DNA of 64,000 nt from Thermoplasmata archaeon. Lineage in GTDB: Archaea > Thermoplasmatota > Thermoplasmata > Thermoplasmatales > Thermoplasmataceae. A program made the translations under genes and the position numbers. Location of the stretch: contig JAJYRA010000041.1 of NCBI GenBank assembly GCA_021794355.1, forward strand, positions 1 to 64,000, written 5' to 3'. Of the stretch, positions 11,914 to 60,278 are shown piece after piece. The notes below the pieces were generated by a model. That model was not told where the DNA came from. It saw only the letters and a list, made by a program, of their open reading frames with translations, and made no database searches. How positions within the stretch are numbered: position 1 is the stretch's first letter; the number at the start of each line of letters is the position of its first letter.

Positions 11914-13122
11914 ATGGCAGGAAAGATAAAAGAGATAGAAATATACAACATCAGCGAAAAAACTTCCGAGAAATCATCCCCCTGGAGTTCCACGATGATT
12001 ATTGTGAAGGTAACTACAAGCGATGGTTTCGTGGGATATGGAGAGGCGCCGACCACCCTGATGACACTCCCAGTAAAGGAGAGTGCAGAGGAAGTTAAAC
12101 GTGTCTTCTTGAATAAGAATGTCAATGAAGTTTACAAAAATACCATGGAATTTTACAAACACTCCTTTTATCTTTCCAGGTCAATGGAGGCCACTTCTGC
12201 TCTCAGTGCAGTTGAAATGGCCTGCTGGGATATAATTGGAAAGAGTTGCAAGGAACCAGTTTACAATCTGTTGGGAGGCAAGGTGAGGGACAGCATCAGG
12301 GCATACAGCAACGGATGGTATTCAGATTGCGTCACTGCAGATGATTTTGTGGATAAGGCTAAGGAAATAAAGAAAAAGGGGTTTGATGCGATCAAGTTCG
12401 ATCCCTTCGGAAACAATTATGATACCATAAATAAAAAGGGTCTGGAATCCGCAGAAAACATAGTGTCAAACCTGAGGGAGTCCTTCGGGGATTCGATGGA
12501 TCTACTCATTGAATATCACGGTAGGTTTTCCATGGAAGCTGCCAGGAAAGCAACCCAGATCCTGGATCCCTATGACTGCCTGTTTTTTGAAGAACCACTG
12601 CATCCCGAGTTGGAGATGAGGCTTCCTGAATTGAGGAGTGGCCTGAGCACACCCGTAGCCCTGGGAGAAAGGGTTCTCAATGCAAGGGACTTCATGCGCA
12701 ACATCGTGGAGGGAAAGGTGGATATCATACAGCCAGATGTTACAAATTCTAGGGGCATTCTGGAATCTTTCAAAATAGCAACTGTGGCCGATTCCTGGGG
12801 AGTTCCTGTAGCTTACCACAACGCCTTTGGACCCGTTCAAACCGCCGCAACCCTGAATCTGGACACGACCATAAACAATTTCCTCATCCAGGAGAGCTTC
12901 GAGGAATCCTGGCCCAACTGGAAGAAGAAACTGTTGAAAAGTGGATACAAAATCGAGAATGGACACTTCCACCTATCCGGAAAACCAGGACTTGGAATTG
13001 AAATGGATGAAAAGTCCCTGAAAGATCACATGGTTGATGGAATGGAACCCTTTGATCCGGATTCGCCACCTTGGGTGGTATCAGGTACATATGTAGGGGA
13101 GGGAACCGATGGAAAGCAGTGA
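11914..13122 (+). CDS. Sugar-acid dehydratase (gluconate/galactonate type), enolase superfamily
   Basis: A 402-aa mandelate-racemase/muconate-lactonising-type protein. These relatives in Thermoplasma and Picrophilus dehydrate D-gluconate or D-galactonate to the 2-keto-3-deoxy acid in the non-phosphorylative Entner-Doudoroff pathway. Capping domain residues ~1-125 precede a TIM barrel. Metal ligands and catalytic residues are visible as LLIEYHGRFS, FFEEPLHPE and VALGERV, and the barrel-end His is in VAYHNAFGP. Substrate choice cannot be decided from these motifs. It faces away from topA across a short AT-rich promoter and overlaps the next gene by 14 nt. Confidence 0.88.
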   Translation: MAGKIKEIEIYNISEKTSEKSSPWSSTMIIVKVTTSDGFVGYGEAPTTLMTLPVKESAEEVKRVFLNKNVNEVYKNTMEFYKHSFYLSRSMEATSALSAVEMACWDIIGKSCKEPVYNLLGGKVRDSIRAYSNGWYSDCVTADDFVDKAKEIKKKGFDAIKFDPFGNNYDTINKKGLESAENIVSNLRESFGDSMDLLIEYHGRFSMEAARKATQILDPYDCLFFEEPLHPELEMRLPELRSGLSTPVALGERVLNARDFMRNIVEGKVDIIQPDVTNSRGILESFKIATVADSWGVPVAYHNAFGPVQTAATLNLDTTINNFLIQESFEESWPNWKKKLLKSGYKIENGHFHLSGKPGLGIEMDEKSLKDHMVDGMEPFDPDSPPWVVSGTYVGEGTDGKQ

Positions 13123-49857: not shown

Positions 49858-50400
49858 ATGACACTTCAGGGGGGTGAAAGGCTGGAAAATGAAGTAAGGG
49901 TTGGATATGTGTATCTGCACCAGGATGATCCATCCAAGTCCACAATGAAAAAATTGCATAAATTCAGTCTTGCTAACCCCATACAGAAGGAAAAAATGTC
50001 GGGGTATATGGTGATCAGGTATGATGCGGAAAAAATCATACTCCCTTCAGATAGGTCAACAGTGGCAAGAAAGGGAATATGCATCATTGAAGGTTCCTGG
50101 AAACTGAACGATCTCCTGGCCAATTACAGAAGGGGAGTGGAAAGGAAATTGCCGGTTCTCATGGCAGGAAATCCTGTAAATTTTGGAAAGTTCAACACAC
50201 TTTCATCTGTTGAAGCCCTGGCATCTGCCCTTTATATCACCGGTTTTTCCGAACAGGCTGAGAGGGTCATGTCTAAATTCAACTGGGGACACACCTTTCT
50301 GGAGATCAACGGGGAGCTTCTCAAATCCTATTCAAACTGTAATAATATGTCAGATATTGAGGAAGTCTACAGGGAATTTGATATCATTTTTTCACCATGA
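49858..50400 (+). CDS. tsr3: Tsr3-type rRNA aminocarboxypropyltransferase
   Basis: A 180-aa member of the Tsr3 (DUF367) family, which transfers the 3-amino-3-carboxypropyl group of SAM to a pseudouridine in small-subunit rRNA. Markers: YVYLHQDDPSKSTMKKL, the strand IIEGSWKLNDLL (normally LDCSW), RKLPVLMAGNPVNFGK, and SSVEALASALYITGF followed by FNWGHTFLEIN. The last 17 nt overlap the convergent PP-loop gene. Length matches the short archaeal form. Confidence 0.88.
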   Translation: MTLQGGERLENEVRVGYVYLHQDDPSKSTMKKLHKFSLANPIQKEKMSGYMVIRYDAEKIILPSDRSTVARKGICIIEGSWKLNDLLANYRRGVERKLPVLMAGNPVNFGKFNTLSSVEALASALYITGFSEQAERVMSKFNWGHTFLEINGELLKSYSNCNNMSDIEEVYREFDIIFSP

Positions 50401-51784
50401 TCCAGTGGCCGTTTTCCAGTTTCCAGACACCCGTAGTGTAATATGAAATAATTTTCATGATACTGTTCCTGTAAGAAGCCGGAATCTTTTCCATGGGTTC
50501 CTTTTCATTGGGTAGAATATGAATACCTGTTACCTGCGTACCTTCATGGTATTGTCCACTTTCAAGACCGTCAAGGAGGAATTGAAGTTCGTCCGGATCA
50601 AGTTTCATCCTTTCCTTTCTGGTTTCTTCTGCCAGTTTTTCACTGCCAGGGTAATGAATTTCCTCCGGGTTTCCCTTGGCATAGGCTATGAATAATCGAA
50701 CACCAAGGCACTTGGAACATTTCCCGCATGGGTAAACATCCCCTTCCACATACCTGCAGGAGTGGCATGATCTCTGGAGTTTATAAAGCGAGGGATACCT
50801 TTTAACAAGAATATCCTCGACAACAGAACCGTATATATTGTATAGTGCGGACCAGAGAGTGATTCCAAAACCCTTTTCCATCAAATATTCGGAAAATCTT
50901 CCCTGAAAATCCGAACTCTGATCGTAGACGCCATAATAGTGCTTTATTCCCCTGTAAGGAGGCTCCTCCGCAGGATCATCCAGTTCATTTCCCATCAGGA
51001 TGTGTCCTATGGAAAGGGAGGATGCAGAGGGGAGAACTGCAAAAATATAGACCGGAAAAAGGAAAAGTTGGACGGGGTAATCATCTGCCCATGAAAAGGA
51101 AACAACGGGATCAAGCACGGGCATCAGGTGGTTCATGAAATTGTAAAAACGGTCAATGTTAGACCAGACCCTGGCACTTTCACCCTCCCTGCTCAACACA
51201 TCATGGGAGTGTTTTGCAGCTTTCCAGTGTCCTCCTGACTCATTGAAGAAATAGGGTATGGTTTTCTGGTCTATTTCTTTCATGATTCCAAAGGTCAGGA
51301 GGCTTTCTTTTCCCCCAGAAAGCATTACGGCCGCCCTTCCACCTGCAGCTTTCTCATAATGGTCTTGAAAATCTTCCCTAAAGGTAAGTCTGGTATCACC
51401 CCTGGCATTGGACTCCGTTATCTCCTGATCTGTGGGAAGGTACTCCTTCTTGAAGAAATTGTACCTTATCCTGCATAGCCTGTTGACAAAAACCTCTACG
51501 TTGTTTATTTCAACCATTTCCCTGATCATTTTACGATCTGCAGGGGACGTTGGAAAGTTGAATACCATCTCACCTGTAAAGAGGGCATAGTTGATGACTG
51601 CAGTGGCCCCCATGAGACCTGCAAGATTTGAATTCAGATCCACATCGTGATCATATTTATACTCCAGGACAAAGGAATGTGTGTCGTTGTTTATATTCAA
51701 TCCTATTTTAGCCCTATTCCTGGAAACGGAAATTATGCTAACGACTATCCTGTCAAAGCACCTTATTCTCTGAAGAAAATCCAA
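50384..51784 (-). CDS. PP-loop ATPase with Cys cluster, MurL/QueC-like
   Basis: A 466-aa protein. The PP-loop AAVMLSGGKESLLTF (156-161 SGGKES) indicates ATP-pyrophosphatase-type adenylation. A second feature is CHSCRYVEGDVYPCGKCSKC (C340, C343, C353, C356, C359), a likely zinc or Fe-S site. Size and layout recall MurL, a bacterial enzyme that epimerises glutamate in a peptidoglycan precursor, and distantly QueC. A wall-less archaeon has no murein, so the substrate must differ. TTG at 51784 is the likely start, 4 nt after DUF1611. It is the last gene of a three-gene operon. Confidence 0.68.
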   Translation of the reverse strand: MDFLQRIRCFDRIVVSIISVSRNRAKIGLNINNDTHSFVLEYKYDHDVDLNSNLAGLMGATAVINYALFTGEMVFNFPTSPADRKMIREMVEINNVEVFVNRLCRIRYNFFKKEYLPTDQEITESNARGDTRLTFREDFQDHYEKAAGGRAAVMLSGGKESLLTFGIMKEIDQKTIPYFFNESGGHWKAAKHSHDVLSREGESARVWSNIDRFYNFMNHLMPVLDPVVSFSWADDYPVQLFLFPVYIFAVLPSASSLSIGHILMGNELDDPAEEPPYRGIKHYYGVYDQSSDFQGRFSEYLMEKGFGITLWSALYNIYGSVVEDILVKRYPSLYKLQRSCHSCRYVEGDVYPCGKCSKCLGVRLFIAYAKGNPEEIHYPGSEKLAEETRKERMKLDPDELQFLLDGLESGQYHEGTQVTGIHILPNEKEPMEKIPASYRNSIMKIISYYTTGVWKLENGHWIMVKK

Positions 51785-51788
51785 GGAG

Positions 51789-52820
51789 TTACACCTCTGA
51801 AAGAATAATTTCAGCCATTCTTCCAGATTGTTTCAGGGGGTCGAAGGCAGGCAGACCATATTTCTTCTCCAGATCTTTTCCCGCTTCATCTATTTCCTCC
51901 TGCGTTAGACCCTCCCTGTTTATTGCAATTCCTATTACCTTCTTATCTGACAGTTCTTCCAGTATCCTGATAAATTTGTCAAGGGGTGGAATCTTTATTC
52001 CGGGAAAGCCATCATAATCAACCCTCCTTGGGGCATGCTGCAAAATGATGGCTTCCGGTTTCCCGGCTGCGATTATTTCAAAACTTCCTGGATAAGCGGG
52101 ATGAAGAACTGATCCCTGCCCTTCCAGGAACATATAATCAGGGGCTTCCTTTTCCCATGCCTCAACTATAACACTTTCAATTCCACCGGCCACGAAATCA
52201 TTAATCATGGAATCTATGACCACCGTATAGGGAAATCCCTGCATCCATGCGGTCTGTCCCGTGCCGATCATGGTCGAACTCTTCCCACGTTTCTTAATTT
52301 CTTCATTCAGGTATACTGCCGTAGTTCTCTTTCCTATGGCACTATCTGTACCCAGGACGGCAATCTTCTTTGACTTTACGTCCCATATCTTTCCGGTGAA
52401 GAAGTCCCTCCTCATCATGAACATCTTCCTCACATCTATGATTTCAGTGCCGTATTGTTCACTGAGCTTGGAAAATTCAGGGTCACCGGATATAAATTGG
52501 TGTAGTCCACTTACAACTGTCATCTTCTCCCTTATGGCTCTGGAAACAAATGGTCTAAAATATTCCGGAAGGTATCCACCATCCGTTGCCACACCCACAA
52601 TCAGGGTATCAGCACCCATATCCAGAGCTTCACCGATGGATGAGATTATCCTGATGTCCGGTTTTGCCCCTGGAACAAGTTCCTCTATGGAGAAACCAAG
52701 GTGCGTGCTGTCTATTACCCCAAGAATATCATACCTTTTGGAGAACCTGCAGAGACCATTGGCGGTCTTTCCATAGGTGGAGCCAAGAAATCCCTCTGCA
52801 AGTATTACTGCACTGGGCAT
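51789..52820 (-). CDS. DUF1611-family P-loop protein
   Basis: A 343-aa DUF1611 protein. The N-terminal half is a Rossmann-like fold (ILGVIDSTHLGFSIEELVP, TLIVGVATDGGYLPE). The C-terminal half is a P-loop NTPase-like domain with LGTDSAIGKRTTAVYL (157-166) and the family hallmark FLEGQGSVLHPAYPG. As I recall, one bacterial/haloarchaeal member (DgcN) acts in D-glutamate catabolism. The gene shares one base with the upstream PLP enzyme and is 4 nt before the PP-loop gene, so all three are co-translated. Confidence 0.8.
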   Translation of the reverse strand: MPSAVILAEGFLGSTYGKTANGLCRFSKRYDILGVIDSTHLGFSIEELVPGAKPDIRIISSIGEALDMGADTLIVGVATDGGYLPEYFRPFVSRAIREKMTVVSGLHQFISGDPEFSKLSEQYGTEIIDVRKMFMMRRDFFTGKIWDVKSKKIAVLGTDSAIGKRTTAVYLNEEIKKRGKSSTMIGTGQTAWMQGFPYTVVIDSMINDFVAGGIESVIVEAWEKEAPDYMFLEGQGSVLHPAYPGSFEIIAAGKPEAIILQHAPRRVDYDGFPGIKIPPLDKFIRILEELSDKKVIGIAINREGLTQEEIDEAGKDLEKKYGLPAFDPLKQSGRMAEIILSEV

Positions 52821-53773
52821 CAGTGTCCTCTTCCTGTAAGTACCACAACTACCTCTCCACCGTAATTCCTGTTTGAAAGGTTTTTGTATGCTGCCGATAG
52901 GGCTGAGGCAGAAGCAGGTAAAACCTCGATTGACTGCTGGTTCTCTATCATCTTTGAAAATTTAATCATTTCAGGATCGTTAACTCCTATGGCCACACCC
53001 CTGCTATCGTAAATTGCATTAAGGGCTTTCTGTCCATCCATGGCCCTGAATGAAACAAGAGGCTCATTTGTTTCTGTCTCCACAATAACTGAAGGTTCCA
53101 GCTCCTGTATTTTCCTGAAGCCATGTTTCCATGAATAAACAACAGGATTTCCCAGAGAAGTGCTGGCTGCTATAAATCTTGGAACTGAACTTGTAATACC
53201 CTTCAGGTACAGTTTCATGAATCCACTGTATATACCTGCCAGTGTTGTTCCGTTTCCAACGGGTGCCGCCACATATGCAGGTGCATGCCCCAACTGCTGC
53301 ACTATCTCATTTGCAATGCTTTCGTATCCAAGCAAATCAATGATTGAGTTTACGGAACCGGGACTGCAGTCATACCAGTTCTCATCCCTGGACTTATCCT
53401 TCATGTATTCAACAAGGTCCTCATATTTCATATTTTTCTGGATTATTTTAGCTCCATTGCCGTATATCTCATCACTCCTTGCATTTGTATAAAATGAAGG
53501 GGTAGCAACAACAGAATTGATCCTGTATGCAGATGCGAAATAGGACACAGACGCACCGTAATTTCCACAGGTTGCAACTGCTATGGTATCATAGCCCAAT
53601 TCAATGGCCCTTCTGACATGGAGGCTGGAAATTCTATCCTTCTGTGTTCCTGTGATACTGGCACCCTCAAACTTAAAAAAAACTCTATTCATTTTTAGGG
53701 CTCTCTCTATATTCCTGGCCCTAAAAAGAGGCGTCAATCCAGGGGGCTTCTCTTCCTCTGTAATTTGTTGCAT
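52820..53773 (-). CDS. PLP-dependent threonine-synthase-like enzyme
   Basis: A 317-aa fold-type II PLP enzyme. The Schiff-base Lys is K45 in FKFEGASITGTQKDR, the substrate loop is ATCGNYGASVSYFAS, and the phosphate-binding loop is APVGNGTTLAGI. It resembles threonine synthase or diaminopropionate/cysteine-type lyases but lacks the N-terminal region of full threonine synthases (usual 350-400 aa), so the substrate is uncertain. It heads an operon with DUF1611 and the PP-loop protein. A palindrome between the TATA-like box and the ATG suggests repression (53784-53797). Confidence 0.82.
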   Translation of the reverse strand: MQQITEEEKPPGLTPLFRARNIERALKMNRVFFKFEGASITGTQKDRISSLHVRRAIELGYDTIAVATCGNYGASVSYFASAYRINSVVATPSFYTNARSDEIYGNGAKIIQKNMKYEDLVEYMKDKSRDENWYDCSPGSVNSIIDLLGYESIANEIVQQLGHAPAYVAAPVGNGTTLAGIYSGFMKLYLKGITSSVPRFIAASTSLGNPVVYSWKHGFRKIQELEPSVIVETETNEPLVSFRAMDGQKALNAIYDSRGVAIGVNDPEMIKFSKMIENQQSIEVLPASASALSAAYKNLSNRNYGGEVVVVLTGRGH

Positions 53774-53783
53774 TATTTATTAC

Positions 53784-53797
53784 ACCGACCCATCGGT
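53784..53797. promoter_or_regulatory. Palindromic operator before the PLP/DUF1611/PP-loop operon
   Basis: ACCGACCCATCGGT: perfect 5-bp arms (ACCGA/TCGGT) with a CCCA spacer, unusually GC-rich within AT-rich DNA. It lies 11-24 nt before the ATG at 53773, just downstream of a TATA-like TTATAACA at 53799-53806. A repressor bound here would block transcription start. Confidence 0.45.
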
Positions 53798-54084
53798 CTT
53801 ATAACAATAGGTATTTTATATTTAAATATTCCTAAATTATTTTTCCATTAATGTATATGATGGGGAATCCCAATTTAACGAAGTTTATAAACATCTATAT
53901 CTATTTATTATATATTAATTATAATGTAATTATTATTTATACATTGAATAAATTGAATACATCATTTGTTCAGTAAAATAGGGCAAAAACAGATATCAGC
54001 TCACTGGAAGTGCAATTCCCAAAAACCCTGAAAAATTCTGGATTAAGATTAATTTTATAATTTGATTTAAGTATATTTTATTAA
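53798..54084. other. Very AT-rich intergenic region
   Basis: About 290 bp with long runs of A/T (for example TTTATTATATATTAATTATAAT near 53910). It holds the promoter of the PLP operon. No gene, tRNA or clear hairpin is seen. Confidence 0.45.
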
Positions 54085-54840
54085 TTATAAAATGATTATT
54101 TCTAAACCAAGCTGATCGGCAACATTTCTGACCATTGCCAAACCTGCAGATTTAATCCCCTTTTTGTCCACGATGAAACCCCTGCACCCTTCAGTTTTTT
54201 CCACAGCCATTTTTACCTCTGTTTCAGTGATTTCGTCCATTCTGAACTTTGATATTATATGGCCAACGTTTACATTTTCAGTCAGTACATAGGAGGAAAA
54301 TTTTGGTGCGTAATGGCCACCACCGGCTCCAACAAAATTGGGGAAATTCTCCGGTTTTGCATCCCTTATCCCCATAAAAAGTGTATTCAACGCTTCCGGA
54401 TCATTCCAGCTTTCAGCCTCAGTTCCTATTTCGGCAAATATTATTCTTCTCCCACTTTCAGGTCCATGATGTGTGGCCTCAAAGGTTATATGATATAGAT
54501 CTCCTGAATAAACTTCATTCATCTTTCGGAGAATTGCCGTCTGTATTTCAGGTGCACTTCTTGAAATCGTTTTTGCTTTCCCGCCAAGATCATTGGTGCT
54601 AAAATTTCCCACGGGATGTACCGTAATGGAGTTAATCTTGGCCTTTGATGAGTGCCTGCTCAGGAATATGAGGACCCTATCATCTTCCTCCACGAGTTTC
54701 TCCGGGAATTCCAGAAGAGGCAATCGTTTATCGCTCAATACATAGGGTCCTAAATCCGGTCCGTTTACCTTAAAATAATTATATATGGTGTAACTTGCAT
54801 CATCGGCTGTTGTAGCAAAGAATACAGGGGCATACTCCAT
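54085..54840 (-). CDS. dtdA: D-aminoacyl-tRNA deacylase, archaeal type
   Basis: A 251-aa archaeal/plant-type deacylase (DTD2/DtdA) that removes D-amino acids wrongly loaded on tRNA. Signatures: FEATHHGPESGRRIIFAEIG, FVGAGGGHYAPKFSSY, and the YNYF region at the start. Zinc-dependent in characterised members. It follows the 141-aa gene with a 2-nt gap and so is translated with it. The operon of PLP enzyme, DUF1611 and PP-loop protein lies directly downstream, which hints at a D-amino acid theme. Confidence 0.92.
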   Translation of the reverse strand: MEYAPVFFATTADDASYTIYNYFKVNGPDLGPYVLSDKRLPLLEFPEKLVEEDDRVLIFLSRHSSKAKINSITVHPVGNFSTNDLGGKAKTISRSAPEIQTAILRKMNEVYSGDLYHITFEATHHGPESGRRIIFAEIGTEAESWNDPEALNTLFMGIRDAKPENFPNFVGAGGGHYAPKFSSYVLTENVNVGHIISKFRMDEITETEVKMAVEKTEGCRGFIVDKKGIKSAGLAMVRNVADQLGLEIIIL

Positions 54841-57887: not shown

Positions 57888-60278
57888 TCATGGCCTTATG
57901 GTTATGTCATATACAACATACATCCATGCAATGAAATTGTAATCCGGAGGCATGCGGAAGTCATACATGGTGAAGTTGCCTGAACTTATGGTTATGCTGT
58001 GCACTTTCATGTATTTGCCAGTGAACACATTATAGATACGATCATGTGTGGTGAGATTGGCAGCCTTAACATACCCGTTGCTTGTGAGTACGGGTTCATA
58101 TGCCGAAACCTGCAATATACCATTGATTGTATACTGTCTTGAATGATGACTTATGTACATGTCCTTCACCTCCTCGATCCCGTAGGAATGGGTTGTTATG
58201 TTGTAACCAATCACAGTATCATGGGGAAGAATGTACTGTGCCTGCATGTATGTGCCATTGGCCATGAGGATCTCAGTCGTGGAATTGACGCATAAATTGC
58301 CGTGTCCCCCACCAGGAGGCGTGGTTACGGATACAAGGGAGAACCCTGTAGATATGGTCTTGCCTGCACCATTAACATTAATTGTTCCATATGAAGGGGA
58401 TGCCCTGTAATTGTATGTGTCTCCGCTTGATTTGTGGTATATACCCACCTGTGGAATTGAAAAGCTGTATGTTCCACCGGCCACGGAAGTGAATGTGATT
58501 GATGTACCTGTGGATGACTGGGACATCCCACCTAAGTATACTTTCCATGATGCACCCGAAGGCAGGCCAGATTCACCAAAGGTAACCGTATAAAAGGCAG
58601 TGGGTGTGAAAGATATAATCACAGAAACGGATGTTGTTCCCAGAGACACACTCCCGCTGGATGGACTTACAGAATATCCCGATGGTACACCAATGGTGTA
58701 TGAATACGTATTGTTGATGAGTTCAGAAAATGAAATATCCGATCCTGAAGTGGAACTGGTGGCACCGTCAAGAGTCACGGACCATGTGTTCCCATTCAGT
58801 CCCGATTCATGGAATGCTATGGGTGCCAAGATGAACCTGATGAACCTAACAGAAACAGGTGGTACATCAGATCCACTGACAGTTACGGATCCTGATGGGT
58901 TTGAAGGTGTATATTTCAGTCCGGATGAAGAGGGCATTTTGATGGTGTATGAATAAGTTCCATTTGTAACACCGAATGTGATGGATGATGATGTGGTTGA
59001 GACAGTATCACCGTTAAGGTCCACGGACCATAACTGTCCCGGTGGAAGTTGAGTTTCATGGAATTCTACGGGATTGACCTTGAAAACACGGTTTGCGGAA
59101 GAGGTGAAATTGTTTGCTGATGGAAAACAGCTATAACTATATCCCGGGTCTGAACAGAGACTCACATTATATTGGCACCCGGGCTTTGCAAAGAACTTGT
59201 AGTCACCTGCAGAGTTTGTATTGACCACATAAGCCACATAATCGGTTGCCTCTGGTTTGTTGAATCTCATCTTGATGAGGACCTTCTGGTTTGCCAATCC
59301 ACCATTGGGACCTTTTACCTCACCATGGATGGTGTATGCCGGAACAATTGGTATCGAAAGATTGGCCGTGGCACCGGGTCTACCACTTCCCGTGCCTTCA
59401 TAATAATTAGGGGTGCAAGAAACCACATTTTGTGCTTCAAGGTGAAGACAGCCCGAGGATGAGAACGCAGAATGAGGAATTTTCATAGTCAGGAGCTCCT
59501 GGGCAGAAAATGCATTGCTAAAGTTTCCGCACCCATAAGCGCTGGCAGGATCCTTCTTCCAGATTCCATTGTCCACGAACATCTGGTTCCATAAGAGTGT
59601 GTTTGTGGAAACCTCCGGATACTCCAAGCCTCCCAAGCTCGTATTAGTGTTTACGTAGCTTACCATTTGGGAGAGACCAGAAACTAAGGAGACACCCGCT
59701 CCGGCTGAGGCAAGCACAACCCCCGCAACCGGAGGGAAAAGAACAGCTGAACTTGAAAGCGCTATTCCTCCCATTGTCATCAGCACTGCATCACCGTTTA
59801 TCTCGATCTGTTGCCCGGTTTCACCGCTTATATTCAGACCACTATCATAGGGTCTGCATATAGTCAAATGTGTTTTATCTCCGCAGGAAGGTATCCCTGT
59901 GAAAGAGGAATATATCTTAACACCCCAAACAGAATTGTTCCCTCTGGGACATTGTGGATGAAGTGGGGGTACTTCATTCGGGACAAAGGATAGACCAGAG
60001 ACTGCAACAGGGATATACACTGACAACCCTAATCCGTTGCAAGACTCAGAAAAAGGATGAGCTTCTTCGCCTTTGTAGGAATAATTTGAACCGGTTGCTA
60101 TTCCAACAGAATTTAGGACATAATGGGGACGATAACTATGTAAACAAGAACTATTTGCATATCCGTTTGAGGACAGATTGGAAAAATGTGGTGAATCTGT
60201 GTAGGCATTACCAATTCCCGTAGTCATGTAGATGGTATCATTTCCGTTATAACCAACTAGATTATACTGTGGGGTCAC
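57888..60278 (-). CDS. Large surface protein with C-terminal Hint (hedgehog/intein) domain
   Basis: 796 codons from GTG at 60278. Order: an extracellular N-terminal region rich in Asn, Ser and Cys; a hydrophobic stretch near 165-205 (GGIALSSSAVLFPPVAGVVL); a carboxypeptidase-regulatory-like Ig domain (YTIHGEVKGPNGGLANQKV); three ~80-residue repeats starting FHETQLPPG, FHESGLNG and FGESGLPSG, common in Thermoplasmata surface proteins; a GGGHGN linker; then a Hint domain from C663 (LCVNSTTEILMANGTYM, LPHDTVIGYN, QYTINGILQV, NLTTHDRIYN). Hint domains self-cleave through their first Cys. The usual TxxH appears as SAYE, so activity may be altered. An in-frame TGA separates it from its signal peptide (60285-60383). 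Confidence 0.75.
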   Translation of the reverse strand: MTPQYNLVGYNGNDTIYMTTGIGNAYTDSPHFSNLSSNGYANSSCLHSYRPHYVLNSVGIATGSNYSYKGEEAHPFSESCNGLGLSVYIPVAVSGLSFVPNEVPPLHPQCPRGNNSVWGVKIYSSFTGIPSCGDKTHLTICRPYDSGLNISGETGQQIEINGDAVLMTMGGIALSSSAVLFPPVAGVVLASAGAGVSLVSGLSQMVSYVNTNTSLGGLEYPEVSTNTLLWNQMFVDNGIWKKDPASAYGCGNFSNAFSAQELLTMKIPHSAFSSSGCLHLEAQNVVSCTPNYYEGTGSGRPGATANLSIPIVPAYTIHGEVKGPNGGLANQKVLIKMRFNKPEATDYVAYVVNTNSAGDYKFFAKPGCQYNVSLCSDPGYSYSCFPSANNFTSSANRVFKVNPVEFHETQLPPGQLWSVDLNGDTVSTTSSSITFGVTNGTYSYTIKMPSSSGLKYTPSNPSGSVTVSGSDVPPVSVRFIRFILAPIAFHESGLNGNTWSVTLDGATSSTSGSDISFSELINNTYSYTIGVPSGYSVSPSSGSVSLGTTSVSVIISFTPTAFYTVTFGESGLPSGASWKVYLGGMSQSSTGTSITFTSVAGGTYSFSIPQVGIYHKSSGDTYNYRASPSYGTINVNGAGKTISTGFSLVSVTTPPGGGHGNLCVNSTTEILMANGTYMQAQYILPHDTVIGYNITTHSYGIEEVKDMYISHHSRQYTINGILQVSAYEPVLTSNGYVKAANLTTHDRIYNVFTGKYMKVHSITISSGNFTMYDFRMPPDYNFIAWMYVVYDITIRP

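Follow-up and report, generated by a model that had tools for sequence, protein, structure and literature searches.

A conserved three-gene operon of Thermoplasmatales as a candidate module for ATP-driven amino-acid inversion in murein-free archaea

Three adjacent genes on the minus strand of the 64,000-nucleotide (nt) stretch of Thermoplasmata archaeon contig JAJYRA010000041.1 analysed here (the window) form an ancient, deeply conserved unit, which we read, as an evenly balanced proposition, as a metabolic module for ATP-driven inversion of an amino-acid residue in archaea that have no murein. The first gene (52820..53773, ATG at 53773) encodes a fold-type II pyridoxal phosphate (PLP) enzyme of 317 amino acids (aa), hereafter PALP; the second (51789..52820, ATG at 52820) encodes a DUF1611 protein of 343 aa; and the third (50384..51784, TTG at 51784) encodes a PP-loop protein of 466 aa, a candidate ATP-dependent epimerase. 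The PALP and DUF1611 genes overlap by 1 nt and a gap of 4 nt separates DUF1611 from the PP-loop gene, whose TTG start has GAGGTG just upstream; coordinates and spacing are as described in an initial annotation made from the sequence alone. The family calls made there for the first two proteins likewise hold: PALP matches PF00291 at 165 bits and the DUF1611 protein matches PF07755 (211.7 bits) and PF17396 (82 bits), both over the gathering score, and as profile-based calls both assignments are certain.

Co-occurrence of the three genes, which had been proposed as a check on the operon, was upheld. Upstream sequence of 2.6 kb or more is available for 84 PP-loop loci; DUF1611 is the gene immediately upstream, in the same orientation, in 81 of them and is itself preceded by PALP in 71, and the order PALP, DUF1611, PP-loop is fixed in all 71 loci where the three occur together; sister genomes and loci are related, so these counts are not probabilities. 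Within the 117 genomes of Thermoplasmatales searched, the PP-loop protein is present in 91 (families f1, f2 and f5) and absent from family f3, DUF1611 is present in 108, including f3 (36-41% identity there), and PALP relatives at E <= 1e-20, some of which are other fold-type II enzymes, are present in 90. The PP-loop family extends to other Thermoplasmatota families and to Bathyarchaeota at 29-46% identity, and the gene order is kept as far out as Bathyarchaeota; these distant relatives were recovered by an alignment search of genome contigs, a single-protein query having returned none. PALP is located elsewhere in f5 genus g29 and in genome G005, and was not found in f2 genera g20 and g21. 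Since DUF1611 and the PP-loop gene stay paired in f2 and f5 g29, where PALP has left, these two probably constitute the functional core. The cassette is mostly single-copy, with solitary PP-loop copies at a few loci (L188, L196).

Our reading of the PP-loop protein as an epimerase, which we hold to be about evenly poised, follows mainly from two indirect arguments, an exchange of partners at DUF1611 and a profile match to MurL. The DUF1611 protein consists of a Rossmann-like N domain and a BioD-like P-loop domain (GTDSAIGKRTT, EGQGSxxHPAYPG), with 2g0t, 2obn and 7xrj as solved relatives. In all eight annotated DUF1611 loci that we read (plasmid loci; three further loci carried no annotation), the gene directly downstream encodes an epimerase or racemase; these enzymes fall into two fold families with no relation to each other. 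In Pseudoalteromonas CF6-2, Klebsiella, Pantoea and Sphingobium the pair is DgcN followed by DgcA, reportedly a DUF1611 N-acetyltransferase and an enolase-superfamily racemase. The overlapping gene in Haladaptatus and Natrinema encodes a dipeptide epimerase, and Natrinema has a D-aminoacylase gene upstream as well. The closest plasmid relatives of the window's DUF1611 protein (38-40% identity) are those of Vibrio europaeus and Ruegeria conchae, in which DUF1611 and a PLP gene of the Ala/Orn racemase family form a pair with a 4-nt overlap (L237:5893-8177 and L238:5881-8198, respectively); these PLP enzymes score 367 and 252 bits with the Orr model (cut-off 480), and no function for the pair was found in the literature searched. 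A maximum-likelihood tree rooted at its midpoint gathers the DUF1611 proteins of the operon into a single group (99/98), whose sister group is formed by those linked to PLP racemases (99/100); the other types fall outside. Additionally, in genus g23 of family f3 an epimerase-like enolase gene lies one gene away from DUF1611. By analogy, the MurL-like PP-loop protein would fill the epimerase slot after DUF1611 in the archaeal operon.

The archaeal arrangement is similar to DgcN-DgcA in that a DUF1611 protein is followed on the same strand by an epimerase (here a candidate one). It differs in that the operon DUF1611 belongs to another tree group, the PP-loop protein occupies the epimerase slot and a PLP enzyme comes first. 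The Vibrio europaeus and Ruegeria conchae pairs have the sister DUF1611 group in common with the operon, and differ in using an Ala/Orn-family racemase and no PP-loop protein. The initial annotation linked a DUF1611 member to D-glutamate catabolism; by the curated cut-off the window's protein is not DgcN, scoring 167.5 bits against the 480 of NF041892.

The PP-loop protein carries the SGGKES motif (residues 156-161; 51302..51319, minus strand) and the five-cysteine cluster previously noted, C340-x2-C343-x9-C353-G-x-C356-x2-C359 (50708..50767, minus strand), in which a cysteine motif of QueC type is kept. Across 35 diverse family members S156, G158, K159, C340, C353, C356 and C359 are invariant and C343 is at least 90% conserved, within a consensus of SGGK(E/D)S, ESG.HW, DRFY, D.YP, GDE.DD, DQ and QRSCHSC..PCGxC.KC. 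The QueC zinc motif is C(x)8CxxCxxC (PMC13329287), and C343-x9-C353-x2-C356-x2-C359 matches it with a first spacer one residue longer. The window protein retrieved no significant sequence match in Pfam, NCBIfam or the PDB. Its AlphaFold model has a mean predicted local distance difference test score (pLDDT) of 92.8, and a Foldseek search of the PDB with this model ranked QatC (E 4e-6), Cap9 and QueC first, at modest template modelling scores of 0.25-0.37 on the query. With PP-loop, zinc motif and fold all present, the features by which the QueC superfamily is recognised, the protein is, judging from its predicted model, a member of the QueC/MurL superfamily.

Within this superfamily, the MurL model was matched by 14/35 members at E <= 0.1 (best 8e-4), and the runner-up among 18,950 models scanned was matched by two. 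The comparison rests on NCBIfam model NF041275, whose cut-off is 700 bits; the lack of Pfam matches is uninformative on MurL. No relative comes near that cut-off, and the window protein has no match. Two distant relatives from family f27, both with a CGKDS motif, matched MurL and QueC models (L198, 2919-4151, minus strand; L199, 437-1852, plus strand). Because they are retrieved both by the operon profile (E 5e-20 and 1e-19) and by the MurL model (5e-6 and 5e-4), they provide a chain of homology between the two; neither PALP nor DUF1611 was found near this second family in the f27 archaea. Profile evidence thus supports remote homology to MurL, as the initial annotation had suggested, and does not support membership. 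Like MurL, the operon protein is about 450 aa long and would be expected to activate a carboxylate with ATP. In contrast to MurL, it has PALP and DUF1611 as neighbours, with no MurD2 or Mur pathway. We considered and rejected such a pathway, since the genomes tested lack a Mur ligase set: Mur_ligase_M matches over the cut-off number at most one per genome, mostly in a frame of 425-460 aa and never beside the operon, and this single match is probably FolC. A closer match to a tRNA-modifying enzyme was the alternative named beforehand; the profiles favour MurL (14/35, with 2 for the next family), while the nearest folds include QueC, an enzyme of tRNA deazaguanine synthesis. The protein as the archaeosine QueC was also rejected: it has no PF06508 match over the gathering score, and canonical QueC is encoded separately in all 14 genomes tested.

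MurL requires ATP, releases AMP and inverts L to D, and its discoverers proposed that the alpha-carboxylate is adenylated before the centre inverts and the adenylate is hydrolysed (PMC5808125, PMC8788868). The amine of its substrate is blocked and the alpha-carboxylate free, and since an N-acyl amino acid, as made by a DgcN-type DUF1611 enzyme, shares these features, DUF1611 and the PP-loop protein would make a chemically coherent pair, the one N-acylating and the other then inverting. In the mechanism we propose, the PP-loop protein would spend ATP on an amino acid with a blocked amine (in MurL a glutamate-like one), adenylating it at the alpha-carboxylate; adenylation would acidify the alpha-proton so that the stereocentre inverts, and the adenylate would then be hydrolysed with release of AMP, as in the MurL proposal. 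DUF1611 might provide this substrate by N-acylation or act on the product, comparable to DgcN acting before DgcA. More weakly, PALP may produce the amino acid or use it up in a beta/gamma elimination or replacement reaction, and in most lineages its substrate would not be O-phosphohomoserine. The direction could be L to D (synthesis) or D to L (salvage), and a substrate of glutamate type is a tentative suggestion. As the cassette is mostly single-copy and is kept across whole families of archaea that lack a Mur pathway, its role is likely in core archaeal metabolism rather than in a wall of bacterial type.

Several points weigh against this reading. The MurL match is weak, with none for the window protein itself and no member near 700 bits; the fold matches to QatC, Cap9 and QueC would fit amidation or conjugation (QueC, Cap9) equally well; the partner-swap argument is an analogy drawn from eight plasmid loci, four of which are DgcN-DgcA; and the loci and genomes behind the conservation counts share ancestry and are non-independent. 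A possible though less favoured account makes the PP-loop protein a conjugating enzyme or ATP-dependent amide ligase, in the manner of QueC, QatC and Cap9, that joins an adenylated carboxylate to ammonia, to an amine or to the N-terminus of a protein; the operon would then yield a metabolite or cofactor with an amide group, starting from an amino acid that PALP provides and DUF1611 acylates. QatC, Cap9 and QueC are the nearest solved folds and share the PP-loop and the retained cysteine motif, the PADLOC QueC model is matched by 4/35 members (best E 0.012), and QueC-family members perform protein-nucleobase conjugation in type IV cyclic-oligonucleotide-based antiphage signalling systems (CBASS; PMC13279940). 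Nevertheless, these proteins have no significant sequence match to the operon protein, no qat or CBASS genes were noted beside it, more members match MurL than QueC, and DUF1611 is elsewhere paired with epimerases. Nor can the substrate motifs of QueC, YxQxHxxE and VPxRN (PMC13329287), be made out in the consensus of the family, and the fold ranking was obtained without any MurL structure among the PDB matches, so the search may have had no MurL to choose. A catabolic role, in which the cassette salvages D-amino acids or peptidoglycan dipeptides from co-occurring bacteria by D-to-L conversion in the manner of DgcN-DgcA, is more doubtful. Thermoplasmatales live on peptides, a D-aminoacylase gene stands at the haloarchaeal DUF1611 locus, and six f27 genomes of one clade (L183, L184, L185, L188, L190, L200) carry genes for an L-Ala-D/L-Glu-epimerase-like protein and an M14 carboxypeptidase-like protein beside the operon. 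The epimerase-like gene is of the enolase superfamily with KxK, K and DxD motifs present, and the pair resembles ycjG-mpaA of E. coli. These genes are convergent to the operon and confined to one family, which also limits what they lend to the epimerase reading. PMC12363236, citing earlier work, places DgcN in a D-Glu catabolic pathway. On the other side, MurL works from L to D only (PMC8788868), no transporter or regulator gene was found to accompany the operon consistently, and the cassette is near-universal in f1, f2 and f5, unlike an accessory catabolic trait.

It is unlikely, though not without support, that PALP is simply the threonine synthase of these archaea, placed in the operon as mere housekeeping, with DUF1611 and the PP-loop protein performing a separate two-gene function. 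PALP scores 420.9 bits with NCBIfam NF004996 (PRK06381, "threonine synthase"; cut-off 266), and genomes G000, G097 and G069 have a homoserine dehydrogenase with no ThrC over the TIGR00260 cut-off, as several f27 genomes likewise lack another ThrC over cut-off. In the former three, PALP may therefore make threonine, or the true enzyme may have diverged too far or be absent from the assembly. A Cuniculiplasma proteome also lists one "threonine synthase and cysteate synthase" (PMC7285479), which was not mapped to PALP. In contrast, PALP itself reaches only 71.3 bits with TIGR00260 (ThrC; cut-off 167.1), and a canonical ThrC over cut-off coexists with an operon-type PALP in 12 genomes (G025, G036, G059, G104, G129, G158, G183, G198, G209, G375, G376 and G377), while G005 has PALP with no homoserine dehydrogenase detected. 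The AlphaFold model of PALP (pLDDT 92) places ThrC, then serine racemase, as best PDB matches, and the PLP lysine is Lys45 in GTQKDR. ThrC is thus a fellow fold-type II PLP enzyme and the nearest solved relative, differing in its substrate-site residues: true ThrC proteins of the order have STGNT and NPxR(I/L)EGQKT, whereas the operon PALPs have T/S-CGN(Y/F)G and lack the Arg. In the Thermus enzyme the STGNT loop and the Arg position bind the substrate phosphate. Because the conserved Arg is absent and canonical ThrC coexists in 12 genomes, PALP is in general probably something other than ThrC, and ThrC as its sole role is disfavoured; in the window's own genus, PALP could be the threonine synthase. 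The D-amino-acid reading of the operon, already put forward in the initial annotation and strengthened by the pairing of DUF1611 with epimerases and racemases, is the best of the readings considered, though unproven.

A TATA-like sequence, ATTTAAATATA, read by eye as a consensus match, lies 5' of PALP (53817..53829, minus strand) and is likely the promoter of the operon. Between it and the gene, an inverted repeat, ACCGA-TGGG-TCGGT (53784..53797, minus strand), ends 10 nt before the ATG. This dyad directly precedes a Shine-Dalgarno-like GGTG/GAGTGA and recurs, with varied sequence, in related leaders. Using a criterion of at least 5 base pairs including 3 GC pairs, a stem is present in 18/50 distinct PALP leaders, which are phylogenetically related, versus a mean of 1.3 and a maximum of 4 in 300 dinucleotide-shuffled sets; 4/143 control leaders yield such a stem. 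The stems differ in sequence with pairing kept (ACCGA/TCGGT, GACCT/AGGTC, TCAGGC/GCCTGA, TACCAGT/ACTGGTA). RNAalifold retrieved no consensus from these hairpins, probably owing to MAFFT being unable to align short, varied stems. The hairpin is a candidate operator, or a candidate element for the control of translation.

Upstream of the operon on the same strand is a D-aminoacyl-tRNA deacylase gene (54085-54840, minus strand), found upstream of PALP in 39/62 loci examined, almost only in Thermoplasmataceae. Its distance of 60-410 bp from PALP suggests that it has its own promoter; its proximity may fit an operon making D-amino acids, with plain synteny as the alternative. Downstream, TSR3 is convergent with the operon. 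A RimI-like GNAT gene is convergent with the PP-loop gene in L158, L162, L165, L183 and 11 other loci (Bathyarchaeota, f27). A FolC-like gene near PALP in f5 g29 (L058, L068) was taken as chance, an opposite-strand gene lying in between. Elsewhere in the window, 12346-13014 (plus strand) belongs to an enolase-superfamily gene (PF13378, 404 aa frame), by its size probably a sugar-acid dehydratase and not an amino-acid epimerase, and 57888-60278 (minus strand) is a large repeat-bearing open reading frame whose C-terminal stretch from CVNSTTEILMANG appears by eye to be Hint-like (intein/hedgehog-type).

To our knowledge, the only enzyme for which ATP-driven epimerisation of a peptide has been described is MurL, which acts in the bacterial wall pathway. 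A speculative extension of our reading, which we consider possible and would not press, is a hitherto undescribed pathway in two archaeal phyla: a threonine-synthase-like enzyme with a new specificity would provide an amino acid, and a MurL-type ATP-dependent epimerase, acting outside wall synthesis, would turn it into an N-acylated D-amino acid or into a cofactor or solute that contains such a residue. The question is testable, with three proteins in one operon and cultured hosts in Thermoplasma, Ferroplasma and Cuniculiplasma. If true, the reading would give a function to an unnamed PP-loop family, to a group of DUF1611 proteins and to a PLP family labelled threonine synthase, and a conserved MurL relative with a D-amino-acid partner in wall-less archaea would mean an endogenous role for D-residues.

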